Assembly: GCA_947625405.1 (NCBI GenBank)
Contig: CANQOF010000010.1
Coordinates: forward strand, 1 to 64,000
Length of the DNA: 64,000 nt
DNA from: an uncultured Atopobiaceae bacterium
GTDB lineage: Bacteria; Actinomycetota; Coriobacteriia; Coriobacteriales; Atopobiaceae
Direction of reading: 5' to 3'
Made by a program: the position numbers and the translations under genes. The notes under the pieces were generated by a model. It was not told where the DNA came from. It made no database searches and was given only the letters and a program-made list of their open reading frames with translations. Positions 3,820-46,441 of the stretch are shown here, one piece after another (position 1 is the stretch's first letter; each line of letters starts with the position of its first letter).

Positions 3820-3898
3820 CGCGGGCCATGGGAGCATGGGATACATGGTTCCGAGCACCGGGACCTTTGGCTTAGAGGCACGAGCGGAAGGGGTGTGC

Positions 3899-5041
3899 AT
3901 GAGTCAAAAGGAGTGCGTGGCGATGCTGCTCGCCGGCGGCCAGGGCTCTCGTTTGATGGCGCTCACAAAGGCCATCGCGAAGCCGGCCGTATCGTTCGGC
4001 GGCAAGTACCGCATCATCGACTTCGCGCTATCGAACTGCGCGAACTCCGAGATCAACACGGTTGGGGTCTTGACGCAATATCGCCCCTACGCGCTGCATA
4101 GCTACATCGGAAACGGTGCGGCGTGGAACCTCGACGATCCCGACGGCGGCATCAGCGTGCTGCCTCCCTACGCCACCGAGAAGGGCGGCAACTGGTACGC
4201 CGGCACGGCCGACGCCATCTACCAAAACATCTGGTACCTCGAGGGCCAAGACCCGAAGTACGTGGTCATCCTCTCCGGCGACCACCTCTACTCGATGGAC
4301 TATCGCAAGATGCTCGCCCAGCATATCGAGCACCACGCCGACCTCACGGTCTCCGTCATGCAGGTGCCCTGGGAAGAGGCCCCGCGCTTCGGCATCCTCA
4401 CGGCCGACGAGAACGGCCAGATCTCGAAGTTCACGGAGAAGCCGGCCGAGCCTGATTCGAACCTCGCCTCCATGGGCATCTACATCTTCACCTGCGACGT
4501 GCTCATCAAAGCCCTGCGCGAGGACGCCGAGGACCCGAACTCCGAGCACGACTTCGGCAACAACATCATCCCGAAGATGCTCGCCGAGGGAAGGCGCCTC
4601 TTCGTGTACGAGTTCTCGGGCTTCTGGAAGGACGTGGGCACCATCGCGTCCTACATGGAGACGAACATGCAGCTCCTTGGCGAGGAGCCTGAGTTCAACC
4701 TCTACTCCAAGAGCTTCCCGATCATGACGAACGCCCCCACGCGCCCCGCCTCGCTCTTCGGCAAGGAGGCCAAGGTCGATGATTCGATCGTGGGCAACGG
4801 CTGCCGCATCTTCGGCCATGTGGAGCATTCCGTGATCTCCACCGACGCGCGCGTGGGCGCCCATGCGCACGTGAAGGATTCGATCCTGCTCCCCGGCGCG
4901 CGCGTGATGGACGGCGCGCGCGTGGAGAACGCCATCCTCGGCGAGAACGCCGTGGTGGAAGAGGGTGCCGTCTTCGGATCAGCCGGCGAGGACACGGCGG
5001 TGGTTGGCAACGACGCCGTCGTGAAGAAGGGGGATGAGTAG
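3899..5041 (+). CDS. glgC: Glucose-1-phosphate adenylyltransferase, catalytic subunit
   Basis: GlgC makes ADP-glucose from ATP and glucose-1-phosphate, the committed step of bacterial glycogen synthesis. The 380-residue protein has the nucleotide-binding signature [10 protein letters not shown] near residues 10-19, [15 protein letters not shown], the GTADAIYQN block, WKDVGTI, and a C-terminal left-handed beta-helix of hexapeptide repeats. The start at 3899 is set by GGAAGGGG at 3886-3893. An in-frame ATG at 3836 would add 21 unconserved residues. The neighbouring glgD suggests a GlgC/GlgD hetero-oligomer as in Bacillus. Confidence 0.96.
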
Positions 5042-5042
5042 C

Positions 5043-6137
5043 ATGGAGCGAGCCTGCGGCATCATTACCTGCAACTATTCGGTTACGCACCCCTCCGCGC
5101 TCACGGCCAACCGCCCGCCCGCGTCGGTGCCCATCGCCGGGCGCTTCCGCATGGTGGACTTCGCGCTCTCCGCGATGGTGAACTCCGGCATGCGCAACAT
5201 CGGTCTCATCATGCCGACGAACTACCGCTCGCTGATCGACCACGTGGGGAGCGGCAAGGACTGGTCGCTCGACCGCAAGCACGGCGGTCTCTTCCTGCTT
5301 CCGGGCTCGGCCTTCGGCTCCCAGCGCACCGGCGCGCGCTTCCTCATCCGCGACCTCGAGCAGAACGTCCAGTTCATCGAGCGCTCGGATAAGCCGTTCG
5401 TGATCCTCTCCTCCGCAAGCTGCATCTTCAACATCGACCTCGTGGAGCTCGTGGACGCGCACATCGCCTCCGGCGCCGACATCACGGTCGTCTGCAAGAA
5501 GATCGACCACGAGGAGCCCGCGCTCCAGGCCCTCACGGTCGATGAGAACGATCGCGTCACCTCCCTGCACATGGGCGCGAGCTACGGCGAGCTCGCCTCG
5601 CTCGACCTCTGCGTGATGAGCAAGGAGACGCTGCTCCAGGCCATCGCATGGGGCAGGGGCGTGGACTACCTCGACCTCTTCGAGGCCATGGCGGAGGACC
5701 TCGGCCGCATCGTCGTGCGCCCCTTCGTCTATGACGGCGAGGCCATGGCGATCTTCTCCTCCGACGACTACTACAAGTGCTCGATGCGCCTGCTCGAGCC
5801 CGACGTGGTGGAGAAGATCTTCGACCCGGCGCGTCCGATCCACACGAAGGCCCACGACAACCCGCCGGCGAAGTTCCTGCCCGGCGCGAACGTGAACAAC
5901 TGCCTCATGGCGGGCGGCGTGCGCGTGGCCGGCACGGTGCAGAACTCCATCCTCGGCCGCGACGTGATCGTCGAGCACGGCGCCACGGTGCGCAATTCCG
6001 TCATCATGCAGTCCTGCGTCATCTCCGAGGGCGCCAAGGTGGACCACGCCATCATCGACCGCGACAACACGGTCGCCCCGCGCGTGGAGCTCCGCGGCAC
6101 CCCAGAGAACATCCTCATCAAAGGGAGAGGGTTCTAA
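5043..6137 (+). CDS. glgD: GlgD, regulatory subunit of glucose-1-phosphate adenylyltransferase
   Basis: GlgD is a paralogue of GlgC that associates with and modulates the catalytic subunit. The fold is preserved (PIAGRFRMVDFALS near residue 35, hexapeptide-repeat C-terminus), but the GGxGxRL nucleotide signature of GlgC is replaced by an unrelated stretch, as expected for a non-catalytic subunit. The ATG at 5043 is preferred because AGGGGG (5028-5033) would abut the alternative ATG at 5034, which overlaps the glgC stop. Either start implies translational coupling to glgC. The stop is 3 bp before glgA. Confidence 0.93.
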   Translation: MERACGIITCNYSVTHPSALTANRPPASVPIAGRFRMVDFALSAMVNSGMRNIGLIMPTNYRSLIDHVGSGKDWSLDRKHGGLFLLPGSAFGSQRTGARFLIRDLEQNVQFIERSDKPFVILSSASCIFNIDLVELVDAHIASGADITVVCKKIDHEEPALQALTVDENDRVTSLHMGASYGELASLDLCVMSKETLLQAIAWGRGVDYLDLFEAMAEDLGRIVVRPFVYDGEAMAIFSSDDYYKCSMRLLEPDVVEKIFDPARPIHTKAHDNPPAKFLPGANVNNCLMAGGVRVAGTVQNSILGRDVIVEHGATVRNSVIMQSCVISEGAKVDHAIIDRDNTVAPRVELRGTPENILIKGRGF

Positions 6138-6140
6138 ACC

Positions 6141-7787
6141 ATGTCTCGAGTTCGAAGGAAGCTTCGCATCGTCTACGCCACCGCCGAGGCGGCGCCGTTC
6201 GTGAAGACGGGCGGCTTGGGCGACGTGGCGGGCTCGCTGCCGCGGGCCCTCGTCGAGCAGGGCTGCAAGGTCATCGTCATGCTCCCGAAGTACGGCACCA
6301 TCCCCTGGGAGTATGTCGAGAAGATGGAGCACGTCTGCGATTTCTATTTGAACCTCGGCTGGCGCAACGAGTACTGCGGCCTCGAGCGCCTCGAGAAGGA
6401 CGGCGTCGAGTTCTACTTCGTGGATAACGAGCGCTATTTCAAGCGCGAGCGCCCCTACGGCTACTTCGACGACGGCGAGCGCTTCGCGTTCTTCTCGAAG
6501 GCGATCACCGAATCGCTCCAGTACCTCGATCGCATCGCGGGCTTCACCACCGACGTCCTGCACTGCAACGACTGGCAAACCGCGCTCGCGCCCGTCTTCT
6601 TGCGCGAGTTCTACCAAGGCCTTCCCGTGTACGAGAACGTGAAGACCATGTTCACGGTGCACAACGTGAAGTTCCAGGGCCAGTACGGCGACACGGTGCT
6701 CTCCGACGTCTGCGGCCTCGCGGACATCCCGGCGGCGGCGTGGCAGCTCTACTGCGGCCCCAAGACCGTGAACTTCATGAAGGGCGCGCTCCTCTACAGC
6801 GATTGCCTCACCACCGTCTCGCCCACCTACGCCGAGGAGCTCAAGACCCCCTTCTACGGCGAGAACATGGACTGGATCTTCCGCGATCGCGCGAGCATCC
6901 TCCACGGCATCCTGAACGGCATCGACACGAAGGACTTCAACCCCGAGACGGACACGGCGATCCCCGCAAACTTCTCGAAGGAAGATCTCTCGAACAAAGC
7001 CATCTGCAAGGCGAAGCTCCAAGAGGAGCTCGGCCTCGAGGTGAACCCCGAGCGCCCACTCGTGGCGATGGTCTCGCGCCTCACGAAGCAGAAGGGCCTC
7101 GACCTCGTGCAATACGCGCTCGAGCGCCTGCTCTCCCGCTCCGTGCAGGTGGCGGTGCTCGGCACCGGCGACCAGAACTACGAAGACGCCATGCGCTACT
7201 TCGACTGGAAGTACCAAGGCTCCATGTGCGCGAGGATCGCGTTTGACGTGGGCCTCTCGAAGCGCATGTACGCCGGCGCGGACCTCTTCCTCATGCCGTC
7301 GCTCTTCGAGCCGTGCGGCCTCTCGCAGATGATCAGCATGCGCTACGGCACGCTGCCCGTCGTGCGCGAGACTGGCGGCCTTCGCGATTCCGTGCGTCCG
7401 TACAACTGCTTCACCGGCGAGGGCACGGGCTTCTCGTTCGCGAACTTCAACGGCGACGAGATGGCCGACTGCGTGCTCAACGCCTGCGAGGTCTTCTGGA
7501 CGGAGAAGGACGTGTGGCAGCGCCTGCAGGTGCAAGCCATGGAGGAGGACTTCTCCTGGGGTCGCGCCGCGGGCCGCTATATCGAGCTCTACGCGAACCT
7601 CAAGCCCGACGTGATCCCGTACACGCCGCCCGCGAAGCCCGAGCCGAAGCCAGAGTCGGAGCCGGAGCCCGCGAAGAAGGCCGAGAAGAAGGCCGCGCCT
7701 GAGAAGAAGGTCGAGAAGAAGGCCGCGCCCGAGAAGAGGGCCGCCGCGCCGAAGAAAGCCAAGACCACGCCGCCCAAGAAGGGCTAG
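6141..7787 (+). CDS. glgA: Glycogen synthase (ADP-glucose dependent)
   Basis: GlgA is a GT5 glucosyltransferase that extends alpha-1,4 chains from ADP-glucose. The N-terminal KTGGLGDVAGSLPRAL block binds ADP-glucose, and the C-terminal GT-B domain shows MPSLFEPCGLSQM and the GGLRDSV loop. Family length is about 480 residues. This protein has 548 because of a roughly 55-residue tail of alternating Lys, Glu, Ala and Pro from about residue 493, echoing the basic tail of the neighbouring GlgB. RBS-like AGGGAGAGGG lies just upstream, inside the end of glgD. Confidence 0.96.
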   Translation: MSRVRRKLRIVYATAEAAPFVKTGGLGDVAGSLPRALVEQGCKVIVMLPKYGTIPWEYVEKMEHVCDFYLNLGWRNEYCGLERLEKDGVEFYFVDNERYFKRERPYGYFDDGERFAFFSKAITESLQYLDRIAGFTTDVLHCNDWQTALAPVFLREFYQGLPVYENVKTMFTVHNVKFQGQYGDTVLSDVCGLADIPAAAWQLYCGPKTVNFMKGALLYSDCLTTVSPTYAEELKTPFYGENMDWIFRDRASILHGILNGIDTKDFNPETDTAIPANFSKEDLSNKAICKAKLQEELGLEVNPERPLVAMVSRLTKQKGLDLVQYALERLLSRSVQVAVLGTGDQNYEDAMRYFDWKYQGSMCARIAFDVGLSKRMYAGADLFLMPSLFEPCGLSQMISMRYGTLPVVRETGGLRDSVRPYNCFTGEGTGFSFANFNGDEMADCVLNACEVFWTEKDVWQRLQVQAMEEDFSWGRAAGRYIELYANLKPDVIPYTPPAKPEPKPESEPEPAKKAEKKAAPEKKVEKKAAPEKRAAAPKKAKTTPPKKG

Positions 7788-7803: not shown

Positions 7804-10800
7804 ATGCGAATCCTGCATAACAGCAGGAGCGAAGCGTACAGAGAACCGTACGGTGCCGTCCCCTTGGGCGGCACCGTCACATTGCACGTGGATGTCTTCG
7901 ACGAGGAGCAGGCCACGTGTACGCTTCGACTCTGGATCGACGGCCAAGGCGAGACCCTCATCCCGATGCGGGAAGAGAACGCAGGCGACCACCTGCGATT
8001 TTCCGCGGAGCTCACGCCGAAGTGCGCCGAGATCCACTGGTACTGCTTCATCGTGGAGGGCGCGAAGGGCCAGGTGAGGTTCCTCGGCGCCAAGCAGGGA
8101 CGCACGGGCGGCGAGGGCGAGGCCTATGACGCGCTTCCCCCTTCGTTCCAGATCACCGTCTATAAGGAGCGCAGCGTCTACCCCGAATGGTGGGAGGACG
8201 CGATCGTCTACCAGATCTTCCCCGATCGCTTCGCGCGCGACGCGCACTGGAAGGACAAGGTCATACCCGCGCTCGAGGTGGAGCACGTGGGGCCGCGACG
8301 CCGCCTCATCGAGGACTGGAACGCGCCCGTCTCCTACGTGCGCAACCCCGACGGCACCATTGCCGCCTGGGACTTCTACGGCGGCACGCTCGACGGCATC
8401 GCCGAAAAGCTCGACTACCTCGCTGAGCTCGGCGTGAGCGCGATCTACCTCTGCCCCATCTTCTCCGCGGAATCGAACCACCGCTACGACACGGCGGACT
8501 ACCTGCACGTCTCGCCCATCCTCGGCGGAAACGAGGCCTTCCAACGCCTCGCGATGGAGGCGGGCAAGCGCGGCATCTCGCTCGTCCTCGACGGCGTCTT
8601 CAACCACACCGGCACCGACTCACGCTACTTCAACGAGTTCGGCAACTTCGACACCGTCGGCGCGGGGCAGTCGCCGGATTCGCCCTACCACGACTGGTAC
8701 GAGTGGAAGGACGACGGCACGTACGCCTCGTGGTGGGGCGTGAAGAACATGCCCGCCATGAACAAGCGGAGCAAGGGCTGGAGAGAGTTCGTGTTCGGGC
8801 CGGACGGCGTCGTGCCCACGTGGCTTCGCCGCGGCGCGCGCGGCTGGCGCCTCGACGTGGCGGACGAGTTGAACGACGAGTTCATCGCTCGCATCAAGGA
8901 AGCGGAGACGCGCGAGGCGCCCGACGCGCTCCTGCTCGGCGAGGTGTGGGAAGACGCATCGAACAAGATCGCGTATTCCGAGCTCAGGCACTATTTCTGC
9001 GGAGACGAGCTCGACGGCGTGATGAACTATCCCTTCAGGGACGCCCTCCTCGAGTTCCTGCGGGGCACCACGAGCGCCCCGGACTTCGCCGAGGCCATGG
9101 AGCGGCTCCACGAGAACTACCCGCCGCACGCCTTCGCGTCGTGCATGAACCTCCTCGGCTCGCACGACCGCGCGCGACTCCTCACGCTCCTCGCCGGCGC
9201 GTCCGACCCCGACACCCTCACCGACGAGGAGAAGCGCGCCTGGCGCATTCCCGAATGGGAGATGGGCAACGCGAAGGCGAAGATGTGGGGCGCCCTGCTC
9301 CTGCAGATGGCGTGGCCGGGCCCGCCCTGCATCTACTACGGCGACGAGGCCGGCCTCCAAGGCATGACCGATCCGTATAACCGGGGCACGTATCCCTGGG
9401 GCCACGAAGACCCCGACACCATGAACATGACGCGCAACGCCGTGGACCTGCGCCTTGCGCTCAACGCCCTGCGCAAGGGCGATTTCAGGGTCTTCAGCTG
9501 GGGCGACGACGTGGTGGGCGTCGAGCGAAGCCTGAAGGGGGAGGCGGTCACCGTCCTCGTGAACCGCTCGCGCACCGAGACCGCGTGGGTGGAGCTCGAG
9601 ATGAAGGGCGAGGTGGCGAGCGAGCTCGTGAGCGGCCAGCGCCTCGCCGTCTCCGGCGACGGATCGCGCGTGACCCTTCCCGTGTGGCCCCAGGCGAGCG
9701 CCGTCGTGCTCTTCCATCCGAAACGCGAACTCCAGCGCGAACTCGCCTTCGGCACCGGCGTCTTCTGCGCCATCACCTCGCTCCCCAAGGAGGGCGGCGG
9801 CCCCGGCACGCTCGGCGAGAGCGCGAAGCGCTTCGTGGACTACCTCGCCGACGCCGGCCAGAGCTATTGGCAGATCCTTCCCGTGAACCCCACCGACTCC
9901 TTCGGCTCGCCCTACGCCGGCTCCTCGGCCTTCGCGGGAAACGAGAAGCTCATCGACACCGGCTCCTCGACGCTCCGCGAGCTCGTGGCGAACTTCGAGC
10001 CCACGGCCGATTTCGTGCGGTTCTGCGAGCGCGAGGCACACTGGCTCGAGCCCTACGCCGCCTTCGAGGCCATCCGCGAAGTGGTGGCCGCGGGAGTGGC
10101 GATGGAGGCCGCGGGCGCGGCGCGCGAGATCGAGGGCCCCGCGTGCGAATGGGCGCGCTGGCCCGAGCAATACCGGCATTGGTCGAGGGAACTCCTTCGC
10201 CGCCCGGAGCTCCAGCAGAGGATTCGCGCGAAGCAGATCGCGCAGTACCTCTTCCAAACGCAATGGGACGAGCTCTCGGCCTACGCGAGGGAGCGCGGCG
10301 TGCAGATCGTGGGCGACATGCCCTTCTATGTGTCCGGTGATTCCGCGGACACCTGGGCGCATCCCGAGATCTTCACCCTCGACGACGGAAAGATCACCGA
10401 GGTGGGCGGATGCCCGCCGGATAACGAGACGCCGCAGGGGCAGGTCTGGGGGAGTCCGACGTATGACTGGGCCGAGCTCAAGCGACAGCACTACCAGTGG
10501 TGGATCGAGCGACTCGGCCGCGCGCTCGCGCTCTACGACTGCGTGCGCCTCGACCACTTCATCGGCTTCTCGCGCTTCTGGAGCGTGCCGGCGGGGCAGA
10601 CGGCCGATCACGGCCGTTGGCTGCACGGCCCCGGGGTGGCGCTCTTCGTGGCGGCCCATAAGCAGTTCGGGCCGCTTCCGATCATCGCGGAGGACCTCGG
10701 CTACCTCACGCCCGCCATTCGCTCGCTCGTGAAGCTCACGGGCTTCCTCGGCCAGCACAACGTGATCTTCGCGGACACCGACGTGCGCGAAACCTACGTG

Positions 10801-11340
10801 CCGCCGGCGAACGCCGTGGCCTATACGTCGACGCACGACACGACGACGCTCGTGGGCTGGGTGGAGGAGCGCTTCTTCCCCGAGGCGAACCTCTCGAGCC
10901 ACGAGCGGGCGCGCCACCTTCGCGAGGAGAACGCGGGGCAAGCCGAGCGTTGCGCGCAGGCGCGGACGGGCGAGGACGCCGTGGAGGAGCCGCTCGACAT
11001 TCGCGGTGGCAAGGAGCAAAACGAGGCGGACAAGGCCGCCGCGCGCGAGCTTGCCGCGGAGATCGCGAATCGCGTGCTCCAGACCGACGCTCCCATCACC
11101 ATCCAACAGCTCCAAGACGTGCTCTTGCTCGACGCCTCGGCGCGCATGAACACCCCGGGCACGGCCGAGGGCAACTGGCGCTGGCAGGCGGATTGGGACT
11201 CCATCGAAGCCTCCGCGCCGCGACTCCTCGCCATGACCTCTCGCGCGGGGCGCCTGCCCGAGGGCTTCGACGCCGCCTCGCATAACGCTGATCTCGACCT
11301 TCCCGAGAGCGGGCCGGGCGCGCCCGGCCCGCGCGAATAG
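7804..11340 (+). CDS. Fusion of GH13 alpha-glucosidase/neopullulanase-like domain and 4-alpha-glucanotransferase (MalQ)
   Basis: This 1178-residue protein joins two enzymes usually made separately. Residues 1-110 resemble an N-terminal starch-binding beta domain. Residues 125-620 are a GH13 barrel (IFPDRFARD, nucleophile Asp near 350 in WRLDVADE, acid/base Glu near 380 in LLGEVWED, NLLGSHDRAR). From about 642 a GH77 domain begins, with VRLDHFIGFSRFW (Asp near 915), IIAEDLGY (Glu near 963) and STHDTTT. A low-similarity insert lies at 1035-1090. Together they would hydrolyse or debranch and disproportionate maltodextrins released by GlgP. The gene lies 16 bp after glgA and 14 bp before mfd. Confidence 0.92.
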   Translation: MRILHNSRSEAYREPYGAVPLGGTVTLHVDVFDEEQATCTLRLWIDGQGETLIPMREENAGDHLRFSAELTPKCAEIHWYCFIVEGAKGQVRFLGAKQGRTGGEGEAYDALPPSFQITVYKERSVYPEWWEDAIVYQIFPDRFARDAHWKDKVIPALEVEHVGPRRRLIEDWNAPVSYVRNPDGTIAAWDFYGGTLDGIAEKLDYLAELGVSAIYLCPIFSAESNHRYDTADYLHVSPILGGNEAFQRLAMEAGKRGISLVLDGVFNHTGTDSRYFNEFGNFDTVGAGQSPDSPYHDWYEWKDDGTYASWWGVKNMPAMNKRSKGWREFVFGPDGVVPTWLRRGARGWRLDVADELNDEFIARIKEAETREAPDALLLGEVWEDASNKIAYSELRHYFCGDELDGVMNYPFRDALLEFLRGTTSAPDFAEAMERLHENYPPHAFASCMNLLGSHDRARLLTLLAGASDPDTLTDEEKRAWRIPEWEMGNAKAKMWGALLLQMAWPGPPCIYYGDEAGLQGMTDPYNRGTYPWGHEDPDTMNMTRNAVDLRLALNALRKGDFRVFSWGDDVVGVERSLKGEAVTVLVNRSRTETAWVELEMKGEVASELVSGQRLAVSGDGSRVTLPVWPQASAVVLFHPKRELQRELAFGTGVFCAITSLPKEGGGPGTLGESAKRFVDYLADAGQSYWQILPVNPTDSFGSPYAGSSAFAGNEKLIDTGSSTLRELVANFEPTADFVRFCEREAHWLEPYAAFEAIREVVAAGVAMEAAGAAREIEGPACEWARWPEQYRHWSRELLRRPELQQRIRAKQIAQYLFQTQWDELSAYARERGVQIVGDMPFYVSGDSADTWAHPEIFTLDDGKITEVGGCPPDNETPQGQVWGSPTYDWAELKRQHYQWWIERLGRALALYDCVRLDHFIGFSRFWSVPAGQTADHGRWLHGPGVALFVAAHKQFGPLPIIAEDLGYLTPAIRSLVKLTGFLGQHNVIFADTDVRETYVPPANAVAYTSTHDTTTLVGWVEERFFPEANLSSHERARHLREENAGQAERCAQARTGEDAVEEPLDIRGGKEQNEADKAAARELAAEIANRVLQTDAPITIQQLQDVLLLDASARMNTPGTAEGNWRWQADWDSIEASAPRLLAMTSRAGRLPEGFDAASHNADLDLPESGPGAPGPRE

Positions 11341-17886: not shown

Positions 17887-19701
17887 ATGCAAGGTCTCAT
17901 TCTCGCCGCCGGCATGGGCAAGCGCCTGAAGGCGCTCACCGCGGAAGACACGAAGTGCATGGTGAAGGTGAACGGCGTTCCCCTCATCGATCGCATGCTC
18001 GGCCAGCTCGAGAAGCTCCACCTCGAGCGGGTCGTCATCGTCGTGGGCTACCGCGCGGAGCGCTTGATCGAGCACATCAAGGGGCTACCCATCACCACGC
18101 CCATCATCTACGTGGAAAACCCCGACTACGCGAGCACGAACAACATCTTCTCACTCGGCCTCGCGGCCAACGAGCTCGCCTCCGACGACACCCTCCTCCT
18201 CGAGAGCGACCTCATCTTCGAGGACGGCGTGCTCGAGGATCTCGTGGCCGACCCACGCCCCACGCTCGCGCTCGTGGACGCGTACCAGCCGTGGATGGAC
18301 GGCACCGTCGTCACCCTCGACGACGAGGATCACATCACGAGCTTCGTGCCTGGCAAGCAGATGGATTTCTCCCACACGCAGGGCTACTTCAAGACCGTGA
18401 ACGTCTATAAGTTCGCGAAGGACTTCTCGCGCGACGTCTACGTGCCCTTCCTCAAGGCCTACATGCGCGCCCTCGGCGTGAACGAGTACTACGAGCAGGT
18501 GCTTCGCGTGATCACCATGGTCGATTCCACCGAGGTGCAGGGCAAGCGCATGGAGGGGCGCCACTGGTACGAGATCGACGACCTGCAGGACCTCGATATC
18601 GCCGAATCGATCTTCGCGCCCACGCCCGACGAGCGCCTCGCGAAGATCGCGGGCCGCTACGGCGGCTACTGGCGCTATCCCGGGCTCCTCGACTTCTGCT
18701 ACCTCGTGAACCCGTACTACCCCACCCCTCGCCTCATGTCCGAGATGCGCGCGAGCTTCGACGCGCTCCTCCAGAACTACCCCTCGGGCATGCGCGTGAA
18801 CTCGCTTCTCGCCGCGAAGACCTTCGGCGTGAACCAGCGAAAGATCCTCGTGGGAAACGGCGCGGCGGAGCTCATCCGCGACCTCATGGCGCGCTTCACG
18901 GGCAAGGTCGGCTTCATTCGCCCCACCTTCGAGGAGTACCCGAATCGCTGCGACGCGGCACGAAGCGTCGTCTTCGTGCCCGAGAACGCGGACTTCTCCT
19001 ACGGCGCGCGGGATGTGATGAACTTCTTCGCCGAGGAGGACCTCGAGGCGCTCGTGCTCGTGAACCCCGACAACCCCACCGGGAACTACCTCGCGAAGGC
19101 CGAGGTCGAGGAGCTTTGCGCGTGGTGCGAGGCGCGGCAGACGACGCTCGTGCTCGACGAGAGCTTCGTGGACTTCGCCGCCGAGGAGGGCGCGACGTTC
19201 CTTGATGACGAGCTCCTCGAGCGCCACCCCACGCTCGTCGTCGTGAAGTCGATCTCGAAGTCCCACGGCGTGCCGGGCGCGCGCCTGGGCGTGCTCGCCT
19301 CGGCCAATGAGGCGCTCATCGACGGCCTCAAGCGCAGCGCGGCCATCTGGAACATCAACTCCTTCGGGGAGTTCTACCTGCAGATCGCCGAGAAGTACAA
19401 GGCCGACTACCAGCGCTCGCTCGCCCTCCTGCGCGCCGAGCGCGCGCGGCTCTTCGAGGCGCTCGCCGCTATCCGCGGCCTGCGCCCCATCCCCTCCGAG
19501 GCGAATTACCTCATGGCCGAGGTGCTCCATCCCATGGGCTCGAAGGAGCTCACGAGCCGCCTCCTCTCCGAGGATTCGATCCTCATCAAGGACCTCGCGC
19601 CGAAGATGGGCGGCCGGAGCTTCATCCGCGTCGCCGTGCGCGACGCGGCGGACAATGCTCGCCTCGTCACCGCGCTCAAGGCAAAGCTCGGCGAGGAGTA
19701 G
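17887..19701 (+). CDS. Fusion of LicC-like nucleotidyltransferase and class I/II PLP aminotransferase
   Basis: The N-terminal 240 residues are a sugar/choline-phosphate-type nucleotidyltransferase (LILAAGMGKRLKALT, then KCMVKVNGVPLIDRML), resembling phosphocholine cytidylyltransferase LicC. Residues 265-604 are a fold-type I PLP enzyme close to HisC/CobD (VNPDNPTGNY, VLDESFVDF, and SISKSHGVPGARLG with the PLP Lys at about 458). Fusing an activating and an amine-forming or decarboxylating enzyme suggests synthesis of a CDP-linked amino-alcohol or aminophosphonate. The substrate is inferred, not shown. Neighbours are an OCD-family dehydrogenase and polymerase-like envelope enzymes. Confidence 0.85.
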   Translation: MQGLILAAGMGKRLKALTAEDTKCMVKVNGVPLIDRMLGQLEKLHLERVVIVVGYRAERLIEHIKGLPITTPIIYVENPDYASTNNIFSLGLAANELASDDTLLLESDLIFEDGVLEDLVADPRPTLALVDAYQPWMDGTVVTLDDEDHITSFVPGKQMDFSHTQGYFKTVNVYKFAKDFSRDVYVPFLKAYMRALGVNEYYEQVLRVITMVDSTEVQGKRMEGRHWYEIDDLQDLDIAESIFAPTPDERLAKIAGRYGGYWRYPGLLDFCYLVNPYYPTPRLMSEMRASFDALLQNYPSGMRVNSLLAAKTFGVNQRKILVGNGAAELIRDLMARFTGKVGFIRPTFEEYPNRCDAARSVVFVPENADFSYGARDVMNFFAEEDLEALVLVNPDNPTGNYLAKAEVEELCAWCEARQTTLVLDESFVDFAAEEGATFLDDELLERHPTLVVVKSISKSHGVPGARLGVLASANEALIDGLKRSAAIWNINSFGEFYLQIAEKYKADYQRSLALLRAERARLFEALAAIRGLRPIPSEANYLMAEVLHPMGSKELTSRLLSEDSILIKDLAPKMGGRSFIRVAVRDAADNARLVTALKAKLGEE

Positions 19702-19728: not shown

Positions 19729-20679
19729 ATGGATGTCTATACGTTTGACGACTTCGTGGCCGCCCACGTGGCCCCGAGGCAATGGGTTGAGTGGGCGAGG
19801 GAAGCGCTTCGCTTGAAGGATGGCGCCGTCCTCGCGCCGAAGATCAGCTTGAAGCCAAGCGGCATCGAGCACTGCTTCTACAACACGATGCCCTGCGTCA
19901 TCCCCGCCATCAACCGCGCGGGCGTGAAGCTCGTCACGCGCTATCCCGGGCGTCGGCCGAGCGTGCAGGCGGAGCTCCTCCTCCACGACCTCGCGAGCGG
20001 CGAGCCCCTCGCGCTCATGGACGCCACCTACCTCACGACCGTGCGGACGGGCGCGGTCGCGGCGCTCACCATCGATCTCCTCGCGAAGCGCGACTACGAG
20101 ACGGTGGGCGTCATGGGCCTCGGAAACACCGCCACCGCGACGATCCTCGCCCTCCTCGCGATCGTCGATCGCCCGCTCACGGTGAATCTCCTTCGCTATA
20201 AAGACCACGCGGAGCGCTTCTCGGCGCGCTTCGAGGCGTATCCGAATGCGCGCTTCGAGGTCGTGGAGGATCCCGAGACGCTCGTGCGCCACTCCGACGT
20301 CGTCGTCTCCTGCGTGACGGCCGCCGACGAGGATTTCGTGAGGGACGACGACGCGTTTGCCCCCGGAATCCTCGTGGTGCCCGTGCACACGCGCGGCTTC
20401 ATGGCGTGCGACCTCACGTTCGATCGCGTGTTCTGCGACGATCGCGGCCATTTGCACAACTTCGGGAACTTCAAGGCCTTCGAGCCGAAGCTCACGGAGC
20501 TCGCGGAGGTCATCACAGGCGCGAAGCCCGGGCGCGCGAGCGATGAGGAGCGGATCCTCGCCTACAACATCGGCATCGCGCTCCAGGACGTCTACTTCGC
20601 CACGAAGTTCATGGAGCGCCTCACGCCCGCGCGTCCCGAAATCACGCTCCTCGGCGATACCGAGCAGTACTGGCTCTAG
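19729..20679 (+). CDS. Ornithine cyclodeaminase/mu-crystallin family NAD(P)-dependent enzyme
   Basis: At 316 residues it has normal family length. MDATYLTTVRTGAVAAL near residues 97-113 is the family signature and VGVMGLGNTATATIL is the Rossmann dinucleotide loop. Members include ornithine cyclodeaminase, alanine dehydrogenase and SbnB-type imine or amino-acid dehydrogenases, so the substrate cannot be read from sequence. It starts 27 bp after the cytidylyltransferase-aminotransferase gene and is very likely cotranscribed with it. That implies a role in supplying or recycling an amino compound for the same pathway. It is convergent with the sulfatase gene. Confidence 0.85.
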   Translation: MDVYTFDDFVAAHVAPRQWVEWAREALRLKDGAVLAPKISLKPSGIEHCFYNTMPCVIPAINRAGVKLVTRYPGRRPSVQAELLLHDLASGEPLALMDATYLTTVRTGAVAALTIDLLAKRDYETVGVMGLGNTATATILALLAIVDRPLTVNLLRYKDHAERFSARFEAYPNARFEVVEDPETLVRHSDVVVSCVTAADEDFVRDDDAFAPGILVVPVHTRGFMACDLTFDRVFCDDRGHLHNFGNFKAFEPKLTELAEVITGAKPGRASDEERILAYNIGIALQDVYFATKFMERLTPARPEITLLGDTEQYWL

Positions 20680-20732: not shown

Positions 20733-23096
20733 CTACTCGTCGTCCTGTGGCGAGGCGAGTGGCGAGGGCTCGCCGTTGGCGGGCTCGGCGAGGCCACCCG
20801 GCTGGATCTCGAGGTAGTTTCCGGTGAAGTGCCAGTCGTCGAAGTTGGTCGCGTCGCCTTGGACGAGGTACTCGAGCAGCTCGTAGTCCTCGTGGCCGTC
20901 GTGCGTCAAATACCAGAAGTAGCGATCCCTCGGCTCGTCGGGGATCTCGAACACCGTGGGGCCGAACTCGCTCGTGTCGCCGCCCACTCCGGCGACGACG
21001 GTGGCCGCGTAATCCACATGCCCCGTGGGCACGTAGGACACCTTCAAGGGCTGCGCGGCCTCCTCGGGCGTTTCCGCGGGCTTCACGAGCATGATGGGCG
21101 AGGTCGCCTTGCTCATGAAGTCGACGCCGATGTTCCAGCGCCCGTGGTCGGCGGTGATGATGATGGTGGATTGGTCGTAGACCCCGAGCCGCTTGAGCTC
21201 CCTCAGGTACTCCTCCACGTAGTTGATGACGCCCGCCGCCTGGGGGACCACGCTCGATTGCTCGGGCACGGTGTTGCCGTTCTCGTCCATGGTGTAGGGC
21301 CAGTGCGCGCCCGCGGTGTGGATGAAGCGGAACGTCTTGTCCGCCGTCTCGGAGATGGTGAGCCCGTTTTCGAAGATGTTCTCGTAGTAGGTGGCGTTGT
21401 CGGACGTGTACTCGTCGATGGAGCTCACGTTGAGGTCGCCCGTATAGAACCGGAAGAACGGCTTCAGGATCCAAGGCGCCTCGCGGAAGAGCGACATCCT
21501 CTCAAGGGATTTCCAGAGTTGCTTGTTGTCGAATTCCCGGTTGTGCTCGGGATGGATGTTTTCCGCGAAGTAGGCGATGGCGTTCCTGTCGACCGTGTCG
21601 GTGTAGATCCCGATCTCATACCCCGCGTCCTTCACGGCGGTGAGGAACCGGTTGTCCGCGTAGCGGCGATCCATGTAGTTCTGGAACGTCTCGTCCGTTT
21701 GGGGGAACTCGTTGGTCACGAGGAACGGTATGCCGAAGCGAGTGGGGATCAACGACCCCAAGGAGTTGTGGAAGAGCGTGAAGCCCGTGAACTCGTCCAG
21801 GGCGGAGGGGTCGGTCTCGAGCAAGAGGTCCAGGTAATCCGTATCGAACATGTCGAGCACGAACACGGTGACATCGCCCTCGGCGCCCACTTCGTTGAGG
21901 CCCGCGGTGGTCATCACCATGGGGTCGCTCCTGTTTGCAAGTTCCACGCGCTCCTCGTCGGCGATGCCCACCATCGAGACGATTTGCACCACGAGGAGGA
22001 GCACGCTCAAGAAGGGGAGGAGCACGCGTGCGAGCTGCGTCTTCTTCGCGTTGAAGAGGAGGAGGCCCACGAAGAGCGCCACCCAGACGATCGTGTCGAT
22101 GAGCGTGATGCCAAGATGCTCCGAGAGATGGAAAGCGGAGCCGTCGGCGGAGGGAAGCGAGACGTTCAGGAAGAGCGCCTGCAGGAAGCACCCGAGGCCG
22201 ATGCCCACGAGCACGCAGAATACGACGTCGAAGACCTTCCCCCGAAGGAGCGTGAGCACGAGTGCCACCACGAGCGCGATCCCGACTCCGACGCTGATGA
22301 TGACATCCGTGACGTCGAAGAAGCCGAAGGTGAGGCTCTCCGAGCTCGCGGCCACGAGCTCGAGCGGCGTGAAGATGAAGATCGTGGAGATGGTGAACGC
22401 CGAGGCCGCGAGGGCGAGGAGCAGGCGCATGGGCCATTTGAGCCTCTTCGCCGGGCGGCCGTTGGCGGCCTCGTCGTAGAGCGCGCGAGCCCGCTCATCG
22501 GCTTCCTCGCGCGTGACGCACGCGGCTATCGGAAGCTCGTCCGCGGGCTCGGCCGCAGGCTCTGCCTCGGACTCTCCCGAGGGCTCGTCCGCGGGCTCGG
22601 CCGCAGGCTCCTCATCGAGCGCCGCGGGTTCATCGGTATCCGCGATCTCGGCTGGCTCCTCGTTCGGCGCGTCTTCGTCGGACGCGCCCTCCTCGGACGC
22701 CTCTTCGGCTTCCTCTGGCTCTTCGGCCTCGGGCTCGTCGGCTTCCTCGAGGTCCTCGCCGTTCGCGGGTTCCGCGTCCTCGCGCGTTTCGAGCACGTCC
22801 GCGAGCGGATGCACCTCGGGATCGACGATCTTGTTCGCGTTCTCGTCGATCTTGAGCACCTTGTAGATCACGCGCCGCGTGCGGCGGAAGGCGACGCCAA
22901 GCACCGCGCCGAGCGCCACCGCGACGCCCGCCACGGCTTGGATCGTGTAGGTCACCACCGATGGGTCCACGTAGGCCAAGGCGAGCGTGGGCACCGCGAG
23001 CGACGCCACGATCGCGCCGATGACGGCGGCGGCGAGGTCGAGCTTGAGCTCGCGCATGCTCCGTGTGGACGTCAACTTCACTCGCATCTCTCCCAC
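20733..23096 (-). CDS. Membrane-anchored sulfatase/phosphatidylglycerol-transferase-like protein (LTA synthase superfamily)
   Basis: 787 residues. An N-terminal hairpin of membrane segments (about 20-65) is followed by an acidic Glu/Ala/Pro-rich linker (about 105-190), six or so TM segments (220-385) and an extracellular alkaline-phosphatase-fold domain. Metal-site motifs are VTVFVLDMFDTD and IIITADHGRW. A Thr in IPTRFGIPF is a plausible nucleophile, as in lipoteichoic acid synthases and phosphoethanolamine transferases. It abuts the upstream YidC-fusion gene (stop TGA followed directly by GTG), so the two are coupled. ATG at 23087 or GTG at 23081 are alternative starts. It probably transfers a phospho-alcohol onto a surface polymer. 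Confidence 0.82.
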   Translation of the reverse strand: MGEMRVKLTSTRSMRELKLDLAAAVIGAIVASLAVPTLALAYVDPSVVTYTIQAVAGVAVALGAVLGVAFRRTRRVIYKVLKIDENANKIVDPEVHPLADVLETREDAEPANGEDLEEADEPEAEEPEEAEEASEEGASDEDAPNEEPAEIADTDEPAALDEEPAAEPADEPSGESEAEPAAEPADELPIAACVTREEADERARALYDEAANGRPAKRLKWPMRLLLALAASAFTISTIFIFTPLELVAASSESLTFGFFDVTDVIISVGVGIALVVALVLTLLRGKVFDVVFCVLVGIGLGCFLQALFLNVSLPSADGSAFHLSEHLGITLIDTIVWVALFVGLLLFNAKKTQLARVLLPFLSVLLLVVQIVSMVGIADEERVELANRSDPMVMTTAGLNEVGAEGDVTVFVLDMFDTDYLDLLLETDPSALDEFTGFTLFHNSLGSLIPTRFGIPFLVTNEFPQTDETFQNYMDRRYADNRFLTAVKDAGYEIGIYTDTVDRNAIAYFAENIHPEHNREFDNKQLWKSLERMSLFREAPWILKPFFRFYTGDLNVSSIDEYTSDNATYYENIFENGLTISETADKTFRFIHTAGAHWPYTMDENGNTVPEQSSVVPQAAGVINYVEEYLRELKRLGVYDQSTIIITADHGRWNIGVDFMSKATSPIMLVKPAETPEEAAQPLKVSYVPTGHVDYAATVVAGVGGDTSEFGPTVFEIPDEPRDRYFWYLTHDGHEDYELLEYLVQGDATNFDDWHFTGNYLEIQPGGLAEPANGEPSPLASPQDDE

Positions 23097-25001
23097 TCAG
23101 GCGGCCGCTTGGCGCTCCGCCTGCCTGTCCATGATCGTCTCGAGAAGATAGGCGCCCGCCACTTCGCCGCCGTGCCCGAGGTTATAGAAGAAGTGCTCGC
23201 GCACCTTGGCGATGCGCTCGTGCCACTCGTCCATGTCCTTGAGCATCTCGTCCACGACCTCGCCCACGTGCTCGCGCAGGTCAGACGGCGCGATCGCCAC
23301 CCCCACCTCGTTCCTGAGCGTAAGGTCCGTCGCGTCGCAGCCATACTCGCGCCAGTTCGGGTTGTTCACCTTCGCCGGGGTGTCCACGAAGATCACCGGC
23401 TTCAGCGTGGTGAAGCAGAACTCGCTCGAGATCGAGGACCAGTCCGTGACGAGGATGTCAGAGGCGAGGATCGAGTCGTTCGTGCTGAAGTCCTTCTCGA
23501 AGAAGAGCTCCTCTTCGCTCACGTGCTCGTAGCGCTGCTTGAGCGCGTCCCAGCGCGGCCGGAAGCGCTTCAGGTACTCGGGGTGCGGCCGCACGATGAT
23601 GCGGTAGCCCTTGCCGAGGAGCGGCCCCACGAGGTCGTCGAAGCAGCTGTCGAGGATATTGTCCTCCTGCCAGCTCGGCGCGATGAGGATCGTGGGGCGC
23701 GCGTTCTCCTCGTGCTCGCGTGCCTCGTAGTCGCGAATCTCCTGATCGATGAGATCGTAGCCGCACTCCACGAGCTTCTTCTCGGGGGTGTGGCGGTGCT
23801 CCTCGATGGCGCGAAGCTCGGCCACCTGGTGCGGCCCCGTGCAGAGCATCGTGTCGTAGTGGTCGTAGCAGCCCTCGGGCGAGATCATGTTCACCGACGT
23901 CGTGTGGTGGAACATGTAGACGTACTCGACGTCCTTCTTCACGTACGAGCGCTTCATGTAGTAGTTGTCGAGGTCGGGGAGGGTGAGCGCCACGACGTCG
24001 GCCTCCATCTTCATGAACATCGTGATGGCGCGCTTCTCGCTCACGTAGTAGGGGAAGATCCGCGGGTTTTCCTCGGCGATCTTGAAGATCTGGTCCTCGG
24101 GGTCGTTCGTCACGTAGTGGATGATCAAGTCGGAGTGTCCGAGCAGGTATTCGATGGCGCCGCGGAAGTATTTATAGAATCCGCTGCCCTCGGAGTAGAA
24201 CACGATGTGCTTGCCCACGATGTTGAAGAAGCGCTTGTAGTCGCGCTTCTCGCGCCGTGCGAGCGGGTTCGGCTTCCACCATGGCGTCTTGCCGCCGACG
24301 TTCCTCAGCGCCTCGAGCTCCTTGCGGGTGGCGTTCACCTCGTCGCGGTCGATGTACTTGTTGGGGTTCACCACGAGGTTGCACACGAGCTGCACGCCGA
24401 TGGCGAGCACGTTCGAGCAGATCCAATAGAACGCCATGCCCGCCGCCACGAAGACGCCGAGCACGAGCGAGAGCGCCACGGAGAGGCCGTTGGTGGAGAA
24501 CTGCTCGGCCTTGGACTGCTCGCGCTGGAGCGGGTTGATGTGGTTTTGCGCGAGGCCGAGGAGAAGCGCGGAGAGGCCCGCGAGCGGCGGCATGATCCAC
24601 GAGAGTCCGCCATCCGTCGCGGGCACGAGCCCGAGGAACTCCGTCCCCGGCTGGCCGCTGTTGGTGATGCCGCGCACCACGTCCACGAGGCCGAAGAGGA
24701 TGAGGATCTGCACGCCGAGGGGGATGAGCGAGAGCAGGGGATGGTAGTGGTTCTCCTTGTAGAGCTTGGTCTGCTCCTCGCCGATGGTCTCGTTGTCGCC
24801 GAAGTAGCGCGCCTTCAGGCGGTTCACCTGCGGCATGATCTGCACCATGCGGATGGAGTTCTTCTGCACCCAAAACGAGAGCGGCAGGAGCACGACCTTG
24901 ATCACGAGGGTGAAGAGGAGAATCGTGATCCACCAATTGCCCGTGAGGCCAAAGATGGGGTCGAGTATCAGGGAAAACAGGTCTGAGAGCGCTTCGAGCA
25001 T
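23097..25001 (-). CDS. Fusion of YidC/Oxa1-type membrane insertase domain and CDP-glycerol glycerophosphotransferase-like (TagF) domain
   Basis: 634 residues. The first 230 or so are a complete YidC/Oxa1 core with about five TM segments (NWWITILLFTLVIKVVLLPL, then MPQVNRLKARY and a characteristic amphipathic loop). From about 270 there is a GT-B fold resembling TagF/TarF: HHTTSVNM, IVRPHPEYLKRF and VTDWSSISSEF are the recognisable blocks, with His and Asp/Ser residues typical of CDP-glycerol transferases. YidC normally inserts membrane proteins and TagF normally polymerises poly(glycerol phosphate) at the inner leaflet. Fusion would tether the polymerase or couple polymer extension to lipid insertion. 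It is first in a two-gene minus-strand operon. Confidence 0.85.
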   Translation of the reverse strand: MLEALSDLFSLILDPIFGLTGNWWITILLFTLVIKVVLLPLSFWVQKNSIRMVQIMPQVNRLKARYFGDNETIGEEQTKLYKENHYHPLLSLIPLGVQILILFGLVDVVRGITNSGQPGTEFLGLVPATDGGLSWIMPPLAGLSALLLGLAQNHINPLQREQSKAEQFSTNGLSVALSLVLGVFVAAGMAFYWICSNVLAIGVQLVCNLVVNPNKYIDRDEVNATRKELEALRNVGGKTPWWKPNPLARREKRDYKRFFNIVGKHIVFYSEGSGFYKYFRGAIEYLLGHSDLIIHYVTNDPEDQIFKIAEENPRIFPYYVSEKRAITMFMKMEADVVALTLPDLDNYYMKRSYVKKDVEYVYMFHHTTSVNMISPEGCYDHYDTMLCTGPHQVAELRAIEEHRHTPEKKLVECGYDLIDQEIRDYEAREHEENARPTILIAPSWQEDNILDSCFDDLVGPLLGKGYRIIVRPHPEYLKRFRPRWDALKQRYEHVSEEELFFEKDFSTNDSILASDILVTDWSSISSEFCFTTLKPVIFVDTPAKVNNPNWREYGCDATDLTLRNEVGVAIAPSDLREHVGEVVDEMLKDMDEWHERIAKVREHFFYNLGHGGEVAGAYLLETIMDRQAERQAAA

Positions 25002-36976: not shown

Positions 36977-38032
36977 CTACTTCGCCGTCAGATCACCCAA
37001 TGACGGCATCCTGGCTTCCATGGCTTCAGCGACCTCTCCCGAAGCATCTGCATAGTCGATGGTCTGGCCATCCGTGGTGTTTTGCCAGCACTCAAGTTCG
37101 TGCGAAAAATCAGAGATCTCTCGCGCGGCATTGAACGAGTTCACGAAGTCTGCGATCCCATCAATCAGTGCGTGCTCCGCCTCACTGAATGGGTCGTTCG
37201 CAGGCAATTTGTTTGGCACTAGCACTTCGCCCCATCCCTGTTCGCAGAATTCCACGATGCCGCTCTCTGCCAGCAGGTAGCGCAAACCTTCCATGCCATC
37301 GACTACGGGGCCGTAGGTGGCGTGGGCGTAGCGGAGACCCGTCAAAGATCTGCCACGGCAAGCGCAGGCAAACATGTCGGCAAAGAAAATCGCCTTCTGG
37401 CTTTTCGTCCAAAAGAGATCTTTGCATTTTTGGGCGAGTAGATATACCAACGCTAAGGCTCGATCGGGGTCGAATGCTCGATATCCATTCTTCGCCGAAG
37501 GCGCGTCTGCAGTCTGGCCTTCCAATTTCGATGGCAGTGGTCGCGCCCAAGGGAGTTCCTTGGCTGGCATCGAGAGCGCCATTTCAATGCTCTCTATAGA
37601 ACGCTCGCTCAGCCTGTTTCGGTTCTTTGCTAAAAGCTGTCGCGCGCCCTGAGGCGTCTTTGTCTGTTCCAGCACCAAGCTGTGCGTTGGATCTGGAATA
37701 TCCCCTCGCTCATATCGATAGACGGTCTGTTCGCCAAACCCAAGGAAGCGGCTGAATTCACGAAGGGAGAGCCCGTAGTGCTCTCGTAGCTCGCGAATCT
37801 CTTCCGGCGATGGAATGCCATGGCGAGCTCGATAGATTGCATAGGCACGATCCAAGTTCTCGCCCTCGACGCGAGCGTCCCCGATTTCCATGCCACAGTT
37901 TGGGCAAATCGCCACGGTCTCCGTGAAGTCGATCTCATCGCCACGAACACGCAGCTTTGCCGGCTGCTCTCGGAGCTCGGAGCAAACGTTCGTGTCGCAC
38001 TCAGGGCAGTAGGTGTCCAAGGAATCAATCAT
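36977..38032 (-). CDS. Zinc-finger/XRE/Panacea (DUF4065) antitoxin
   Basis: 351 residues in three domains. An N-terminal YgiT-type zinc finger (CPECDTNVC ... CPNCGME) comes first. An XRE helix-turn-helix near residues 80-130 (LREHYGLSLREFSRFLGFGE) follows, and then a C-terminal DUF4065/Panacea domain (KSQKAIFFADMFACACRGRS, YGPVVDGMEGL). Panacea domains are a described class of toxin-neutralising modules, and YgiT fingers occur in MqsA antitoxins. ATG at 38032 overlaps the toxin stop by 8 bp behind GAGAGGCG. An in-frame ATG at 38089 lies inside the toxin gene. Toxin-first order is typical of mqsRA. Confidence 0.88.
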   Translation of the reverse strand: MIDSLDTYCPECDTNVCSELREQPAKLRVRGDEIDFTETVAICPNCGMEIGDARVEGENLDRAYAIYRARHGIPSPEEIRELREHYGLSLREFSRFLGFGEQTVYRYERGDIPDPTHSLVLEQTKTPQGARQLLAKNRNRLSERSIESIEMALSMPAKELPWARPLPSKLEGQTADAPSAKNGYRAFDPDRALALVYLLAQKCKDLFWTKSQKAIFFADMFACACRGRSLTGLRYAHATYGPVVDGMEGLRYLLAESGIVEFCEQGWGEVLVPNKLPANDPFSEAEHALIDGIADFVNSFNAAREISDFSHELECWQNTTDGQTIDYADASGEVAEAMEARMPSLGDLTAK

Positions 38033-38372
38033 CTTCGCGCCTCTCACTAAACGCATGTACTGACAGGCATTTCGCCTGTCTCTTATCAACTCGGATGGAC
38101 AGCTTCAGATAAAACTTCTCGCCCTTGAATGACGGTGAGAACTCGGCAACGTTCCAGTTATCTGCAAAACGTGGATCTCTGTCTCTTTCGGGGCCGTCAA
38201 AGCAATCTTCTACCTCGAGCGAGAGGATGATCTCCTCGAGCATTGTCGGCGTCATGCCGCGATCAGCCATGAACTTGAGGCTTGCACGTCGGCGCACGAG
38301 GATGATGGAGCTTTCCGTCACGAAGCGCTTCAGCTGGGCGAGGAAGAGTGCGGCGAATTGCGTGCGAGTCAT
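38025..38372 (-). CDS. MqsR-like toxin
   Basis: 115 residues. The pattern FVTESSIILVRRRASLKFMA ... LSLEVEDCFDGPERDRDP ... YLKLSIRVDKRQAKCLSVHAF resembles the RelE-fold MqsR-family mRNA interferases, where a GPExD motif follows a helix. ATG at 38372 is supported by GGAGG 7 bp upstream. An in-frame ATG at 38411 would overlap the palindromic operator. It precedes and overlaps the zinc-finger/Panacea antitoxin. The family call rests on motif pattern and gene context. Confidence 0.72.
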   Translation of the reverse strand: MTRTQFAALFLAQLKRFVTESSIILVRRRASLKFMADRGMTPTMLEEIILSLEVEDCFDGPERDRDPRFADNWNVAEFSPSFKGEKFYLKLSIRVDKRQAKCLSVHAFSERREDD

Positions 38373-46352: not shown

Positions 46353-46441
46353 ATTTATGCGCTTGGACTGTTCGCTCTTGCGCTAATCAGATAATTCATT
46401 CATTACTCGTGGCGTCTCTCTATTTGATTGAAGGAGTTGCC

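Follow-up and report, generated by a model that had tools for sequence, protein, structure and literature searches.

The minus strand of the window, by which we mean the whole 64,000-nucleotide stretch analyzed here from an uncultured Atopobiaceae bacterium, encodes a single 634-residue protein in which a YidC/Oxa1-type membrane domain is fused to a TagF-like GT-B transferase domain. The fusion is real, is shared by many gut bacteria, and is followed by the gene for a sulfatase-fold membrane enzyme. We judge the chances to be about even that these proteins constitute a membrane-bound machine for envelope decoration, in which a head group would be transferred on the inner face of the membrane, the YidC domain would handle the lipid, and the sulfatase-fold enzyme would carry out a step on the outer face. 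The relevant features are as follows.

23097-25001, minus strand: YidC-GT fusion protein, 634 aa, stop codon included (open reading frame, Pfam, relatives, AlphaFold2, Foldseek)
24357-25001, minus strand: YidC/Oxa1-type membrane domain, about residues 1-215 (60KD_IMP at 23-208)
24231-24356, minus strand: linker, residues 216-257 (fastest-evolving part)
23097-24230, minus strand: TagF-like GT-B transferase domain, residues 258-634 (Pfam, Foldseek, invariant core)
20733-23096, minus strand: downstream partner, a sulfatase-fold membrane enzyme (conserved next gene, fusion partner in relatives)
17887-19701, plus strand: LicC/PntC-like nucleotidyltransferase joined to a PLP enzyme resembling CobD (NTP_transf_3 and Aminotran_1_2)
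19729-20679, plus strand: ornithine cyclodeaminase/mu-crystallin family protein (PF02423, 2.7e-33)

The original prediction placed a YidC core and a TagF-like GT-B transferase in one frame, and Pfam, AlphaFold2, and Foldseek all bear this out. Residues 23-208 match the Pfam model 60KD_IMP (E 2.2e-29; 103 bits against a gathering score of 35), residues 401-539 match Glyphos_transf (E 3.4e-10; 39.8 bits against a cut-off of 22.1), and the NCBIfam model of the YidC/Oxa1 C-terminal domain scores 91.4 bits (cut-off 84.3). Structure prediction had been proposed as a check; the AlphaFold2 model, computed from a 53-row alignment, shows both domains well folded (pLDDT 90.3, pTM 0.74), and a Foldseek search with this model retrieves TagF (3l7k, E 3.8e-11) and E. 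coli YidC (6al2, E 4.6e-7, approximately 216 columns). A PDB search with a profile of the full fusion returned significant scores for the YidC half only, and a Pfam search of the fusion protein found no match to the LicD family. The claim that no characterized protein couples these domains agrees with our literature searches for YidC-TagF, YidC-phosphonate, and YidC-CDP-glycerol fusions, which yielded no description of such a protein.

A stop codon conserved between two genes in relatives would have betrayed a sequencing artefact; instead, the join is kept in relatives at 55-88% identity, nearly all of which lack an internal stop, and artefactual joining is therefore ruled out. More than 100 related gut bacteria carry YidC and transferase in one protein. 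The domain search across Coriobacteriia that had been suggested identifies the fusion in 74 of 400 genomes, full or contig-truncated (a few lie on broken contigs); all are within the window's own order, the other orders sampled lack it, and one large family of the window's order has no fusion among these 400 genomes. Among the matches listed for 397 genomes sampled across the phylum, none from outside the order is a full fusion. A collection scan with the family alignment places the fusion in named members of Atopobiaceae and Eggerthellaceae (Adlercreutzia, Slackia, Gordonibacter, Olsenella, Tractidigestivibacter, Lancefieldella, Atopobium, Ellagibacter, and Berryella) and in many Clostridia genomes (Angelakisella, Anaerotruncus, Oscillospiraceae, Lachnospiraceae, and Christensenellaceae). 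The fusion records labeled Planctomycetia or Saccharibacteria are metagenome-assembled genomes (MAGs) that may be mis-binned. The nearest relatives of the window (88-92%) are rabbit-gut Atopobiaceae MAGs, and the genome is Atopobiaceae-like.

The YidC half shares with the YidC/Oxa1/Alb3 family (PF02096) the five-helix core, the amphipathic N-terminal helix, the fold of E. coli YidC, and a positively charged groove residue. This residue, Lys35 (codon 24899-24897), aligns with groove Arg366 of E. coli YidC in an alignment to the E. coli and B. halodurans proteins and is a lysine in 80/80 fused copies, compared with 17 arginines and five lysines in a set of 22 canonical copies; one more divergent fused copy, from another sample, has arginine at this position. 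W44, N48, and Q162 are invariant across the fused set and different in most canonical copies. In a tree with the 22 canonical copies, all of which come from genomes of the same phylum, the fused domains form a clade of their own (support 0.82) on a stem of 1.04 substitutions per site. Unlike other family members, the fused domain is joined to an enzyme and coexists with a canonical YidC: contig C3 of the host genome encodes an ordinary YidC (1.5e-51), which rules out the fusion as the sole YidC of this genome and makes the fused copy an extra paralogue. In the YidC topology the core ends in the cytoplasm, and thus the transferase is predicted to lie on the cytoplasmic side, the site of nucleotide donors.

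Many envelope transferases need to be anchored in the membrane, and the simplest reading of this topology is that the YidC domain is a mere anchor or docking platform holding the transferase close to its lipid, with no role in transport or insertion. We consider this reading possible but doubtful: in the two closest relatives dN/dS of the YidC domain is as low as that of the transferase (0.14 to 0.15), with the linker evolving faster than either domain, and such strong purifying selection, together with the private invariant polar residues K35, N48, and Q162 in 80/80 copies, exceeds what a plain anchor would be expected to need. From these sequence comparisons, we infer that the fused YidC domain is probably selected for more than anchoring.

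The original prediction was right about the TagF-like/YidC join but overlooked the adjacent sulfatase-fold enzyme, which in several genomes is itself fused to the YidC-GT protein. The partner gene directly abuts the fusion gene and starts at either GTG 23096 or ATG 23057; its product consists of a short transmembrane segment that we term YDPS, an acidic linker, five predicted membrane helices, and a sulfatase-fold domain. The partner model matches PbgA/YejM, EptA, and LtaS (6xlp, 5fgn, and 2w5r), with which it has in common membrane helices and an extracytoplasmic alkaline-phosphatase-fold domain with conserved metal and nucleophile residues (D402, T439, H585, and D637-H638-G639, numbered from ATG 23057). 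Fold and catalytic residues thus place it among sulfatase/alkaline-phosphatase-fold enzymes. It differs from these three in forming its own subfamily, in carrying the YDPS segment, and in being linked or fused to YidC-GT; the NCBIfam equivalog for LtaS scores only 21.1 bits against a cut-off of 970, which does not support identifying the partner as LtaS.

Of 101 loci, 75 have a detected sulfatase partner and 77 a YDPS segment; truncation affects many of the others. The YDPS segment, a membrane segment with the pattern AYxDPSxxTYxxQxxAG, has no Pfam or NCBIfam match and makes up the first ~65 residues of the protein encoded at window positions 20736-23057 (minus strand). In Coriobacteriia, the partner comes after the fusion and the segment is built into the sulfatase protein; in Clostridia, the sulfatase-fold gene mostly lies ahead of the fusion, and YDPS has a small gene of its own behind the fusion (L098:15204-15437 and L109:13693-13992). 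At least seven genomes (loci L033-L039) encode all parts in a single open reading frame, arranged YidC-GT-YDPS-sulfatase and ~1,330-1,390 aa long. The reversed order, which comes from one Clostridial MAG (L129, 411-3986), is sulfatase-YidC-transferase in an open reading frame of 1,192 aa (Pfam: Sulfatase 230-454, 60KD_IMP 580-769, Glyphos_transf 821-1099). That fusion occurred twice independently, with the parts in opposite order, is a strong argument for joint action of the sulfatase-fold enzyme and YidC-GT. Some loci have two or three tandem sulfatase-fold paralogues behind one YidC-GT gene (L077:10946-18023, L081:11048-17405, and L065:10934-15171), suggesting a diversified outer-face step.

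This arrangement bears on a second reading of the YidC domain, as a dedicated insertase for the partner membrane proteins (YDPS and the sulfatase-fold enzyme), with the fusion serving only to co-localize assembly. Small membrane proteins are among the typical substrates of YidC, the YDPS protein of Clostridia is short, hydrophobic, and encoded by a neighboring gene, and the fused domain retains the YidC fold and most core residues. In the triple fusions, however, the insertase would contain its own substrate, the genome encodes an ordinary YidC elsewhere, and the link to a transferase would be left unexplained, all of which make a dedicated insertase unlikely.

The transferase half is the only Glyphos_transf protein of the host genome, and its active site is intact. 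The sequence blocks HHTTS, RPHPEY, and TDWSS of the original prediction map to H365-H366-TTS, R471-P-H-P474, and T519-D-W-S-S523; H365, R471-P-H-P474, and D520-W-S522 are invariant across 53 fusions, which excludes a degenerate transferase and the loss of catalytic residues that would have spoken against an active enzyme. The histidine, RPHP, and DxS pattern is also kept in unfused homologues of the transferase. A transferase-only profile searched against the PDB reaches Cps3D, TagF, TarL, and Bcs3, with Cps3D and TagF the best sequence matches, and the resulting alignment pairs RPHP with the RxH of TagF and TDWSS with TDYSS; pairing of the invariant H365 with the second TagF histidine goes beyond what this alignment gives. 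The domain therefore shares the GT-B fold, the RPHP/RxH motif, and the TDxS core with the TagF/TarL/Cps3D CDP-polyol phosphotransferases (PF04464), from which it differs in its low identity (about 16% in the fold alignment), in a host that lacks a CDP-glycerol synthesis gene, and in its linkage to genes for the activation of choline, ethanolamine, or phosphonate.

This linkage is evident in co-occurrence. A LicC/PntC-type nucleotidyltransferase, assigned by family resemblance, is present in 71/74 genomes with the fusion versus 106/326 without it (Fisher p 8e-26) and, in the window's own family, in 30/31 versus 26/80 (p 2e-10), both tests counting related genomes as independent and ignoring phylogeny. 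One species of the window's own genus (G192) has neither fusion nor nucleotidyltransferase. By a hand count, the nucleotidyltransferase lies within 5 kb of the fusion in at least 15 of ~58 genomes (binomial p about 1e-10 with an assumed 3% background), and in many fusion genomes it lies far away. Three sets of donor genes adjoin the fusion: nucleotidyltransferase-CobD (the window and L104-L114); choline-kinase/transporter-like genes (L068, L091, and L171-L174); and PEP mutase, phosphonopyruvate decarboxylase, Fe-alcohol dehydrogenase, and cytidylyltransferase (L098, L100, L105, L107, and L131). Phosphoserine-decarboxylase-like genes are likewise among the neighbors of the cytidylyltransferase or the fusion. 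Unfused transferase homologues keep similar company: one closes a phosphonate operon, behind the genes for cytidylyltransferase, PEP mutase, decarboxylase, and Fe-alcohol dehydrogenase (L164), two adjoin nucleotidyltransferase-CobD (L165 and L166), and one is near a phosphonate set (L167).

In the window, we propose that the enzyme at 17887-19701, whose best NCBIfam match is CobD (183 bits, below the cut-off of that model), is a candidate maker of a CDP-activated donor, CDP-ethanolamine or similar. Between this gene and the fusion operon lies the ornithine cyclodeaminase/mu-crystallin family gene, which is restricted to close relatives (3/101 loci) and may modify the head-group precursor. These arrangements resemble lic1 (LicA-D) and Pnt (PntC) systems, in which a C2 head group is activated by a cytidylyltransferase (PMC6697681), here encoded in the same genome as the fusion, and kinase/transporter or PEP-mutase genes are found alongside. 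The fusion differs from them in that the proposed transferase is GT-B/TagF-like with a YidC domain rather than LicD and has an additional sulfatase-fold partner. PntC activates 2-aminoethylphosphonate; two members of the window's family, Olsenella uli and Atopobium rimae, have phosphonate clusters with lic genes near them, and whole cells of O. uli give 31P NMR signals in a study that mentions neither YidC nor CDP-glycerol (PMC6697681). It is fairly likely that the donor belongs to the choline/ethanolamine/phosphonate class. The host genome also encodes a separate LicD, and it may in reality be this protein that uses the activated head group. Of the 71 genomes having both fusion and nucleotidyltransferase, 50 encode LicD and 21 lack it, compared with 80 encoding it among the 106 that have the nucleotidyltransferase without the fusion.

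Taken as a model, the original prediction amounts to a polymerase of teichoic type that depends on CDP-glycerol and is held in the membrane by YidC. Its fusion, conservation, and catalytic residues have held, and TagF with CDP-glycerol (3l7k) is the best fold match, Cps3D and TagF are best by sequence, and Glyphos_transf scores above its cut-off. However, the CDP-glycerol donor, and with it the extension of a glycerol-phosphate polymer, is not supported. Glycerol-3-phosphate cytidylyltransferase (GCT) was not found in the 98.5% complete host genome (best score 15 bits); above the cut-off, it occurs in 4/74 fusion genomes versus 51/326 others, and at a loose threshold in 16/74 versus 75/326, which is no association, and the genes linked to the fusion activate groups of the choline/ethanolamine/phosphonate type. 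CDP-glycerol is consequently disfavored as donor, and we regard such a polymerase as quite improbable. A search of the host genome for CDP-ribitol synthesis found one full-strength IspD-family protein, which may simply be IspD, and weaker partial matches, leaving CDP-ribitol a possible donor. A role of the GT-B domain in sugar transfer or epimerase-like catalysis, in place of phosphotransfer, is highly improbable, since UDP-GlcNAc epimerase, MurG, and other GT-B sugar enzymes match the fold at lower rank, whereas the best fold and the significant sequence matches are the TagF/TarL/Cps3D/Bcs3 polymerases, with which it has the RPHP and DxS core in common, and the domain is linked to cytidylyltransferases.

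In the envelope-decoration machine that we propose, a nearby CTP-using nucleotidyltransferase would activate a small zwitterionic or alkyl head group, perhaps phosphoethanolamine-like in the window's lineage and either a phosphonate or phosphocholine in relatives. On the cytoplasmic side, the TagF-like domain would transfer the phospho- or phosphono-head group to a lipid-linked acceptor in the inner leaflet; the YidC-type domain, with its invariant groove lysine, would hold the lipid-linked product and provide a polar path across the membrane; and the sulfatase-fold partner, fused or adjacent, would act on it outside the membrane, either as a phosphodiesterase or as a phosphotransferase of the EptA/LtaS kind. 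More tentatively, and with more doubt than confidence, we suggest that a YidC-family domain has here become a dedicated route across the membrane for a glycolipid or phospholipid made by an enzyme; this lipid would be synthesized inside, passed through the groove, and processed outside, in some species by one polypeptide of ~1,350 residues. Handling of a lipid-linked substrate by the groove, which the original prediction raised for a lipid-linked polymer, gains plausibility from a study in which YidC and other members of the Oxa1 family scrambled lipids, both in vitro and in simulation (PMC10491306). Scrambling is, however, a general in-vitro property that need not be the biological role of the fusion, and the model is also weakened by the presence of the nucleotidyltransferase in a third of the genomes without the fusion and its frequent distance from the fusion in genomes that have both. 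A parallel in logic is TacF, the teichoic-acid flippase of Streptococcus pneumoniae, which couples phosphocholine content to the export of a lipid-linked polymer (PMC13385700); TacF, however, is a transporter of the MOP superfamily unrelated to YidC.

The system is of interest in two respects. The Oxa1/YidC family is known for protein insertion, and we know of no dedicated bacterial role for lipid scrambling by YidC; a YidC paralogue that always occurs fused to an enzyme modifying lipids or glycans, and in some cases to an outer-face phosphotransferase as well, would provide a direct test of whether evolution has used the groove to move lipids. Surface choline, ethanolamine, and phosphonate groups affect recognition by the host, and the model, if true, would supply a transferase without the LicD fold for such groups in anaerobes that are common in the gut and mouth (Atopobiaceae, Eggerthellaceae, Oscillospiraceae, and Lachnospiraceae).

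Elsewhere in the window, a glycogen cluster comprises a phosphorylase, a GlgC-like nucleotidyltransferase, and a starch synthase at 1387-7787 and, within the same cluster, a 1,178-aa protein that combines an alpha-amylase-type domain with a GH77 4-alpha-glucanotransferase (7804-11340, plus strand). A protein with a helix-turn-helix and a SocA/Panacea antitoxin-like domain is encoded at 36977-38089 (minus strand), and a 1,245-aa Cas9-family protein with HNH, RuvC III, and C-terminal domains at 46409-50146 (plus strand).
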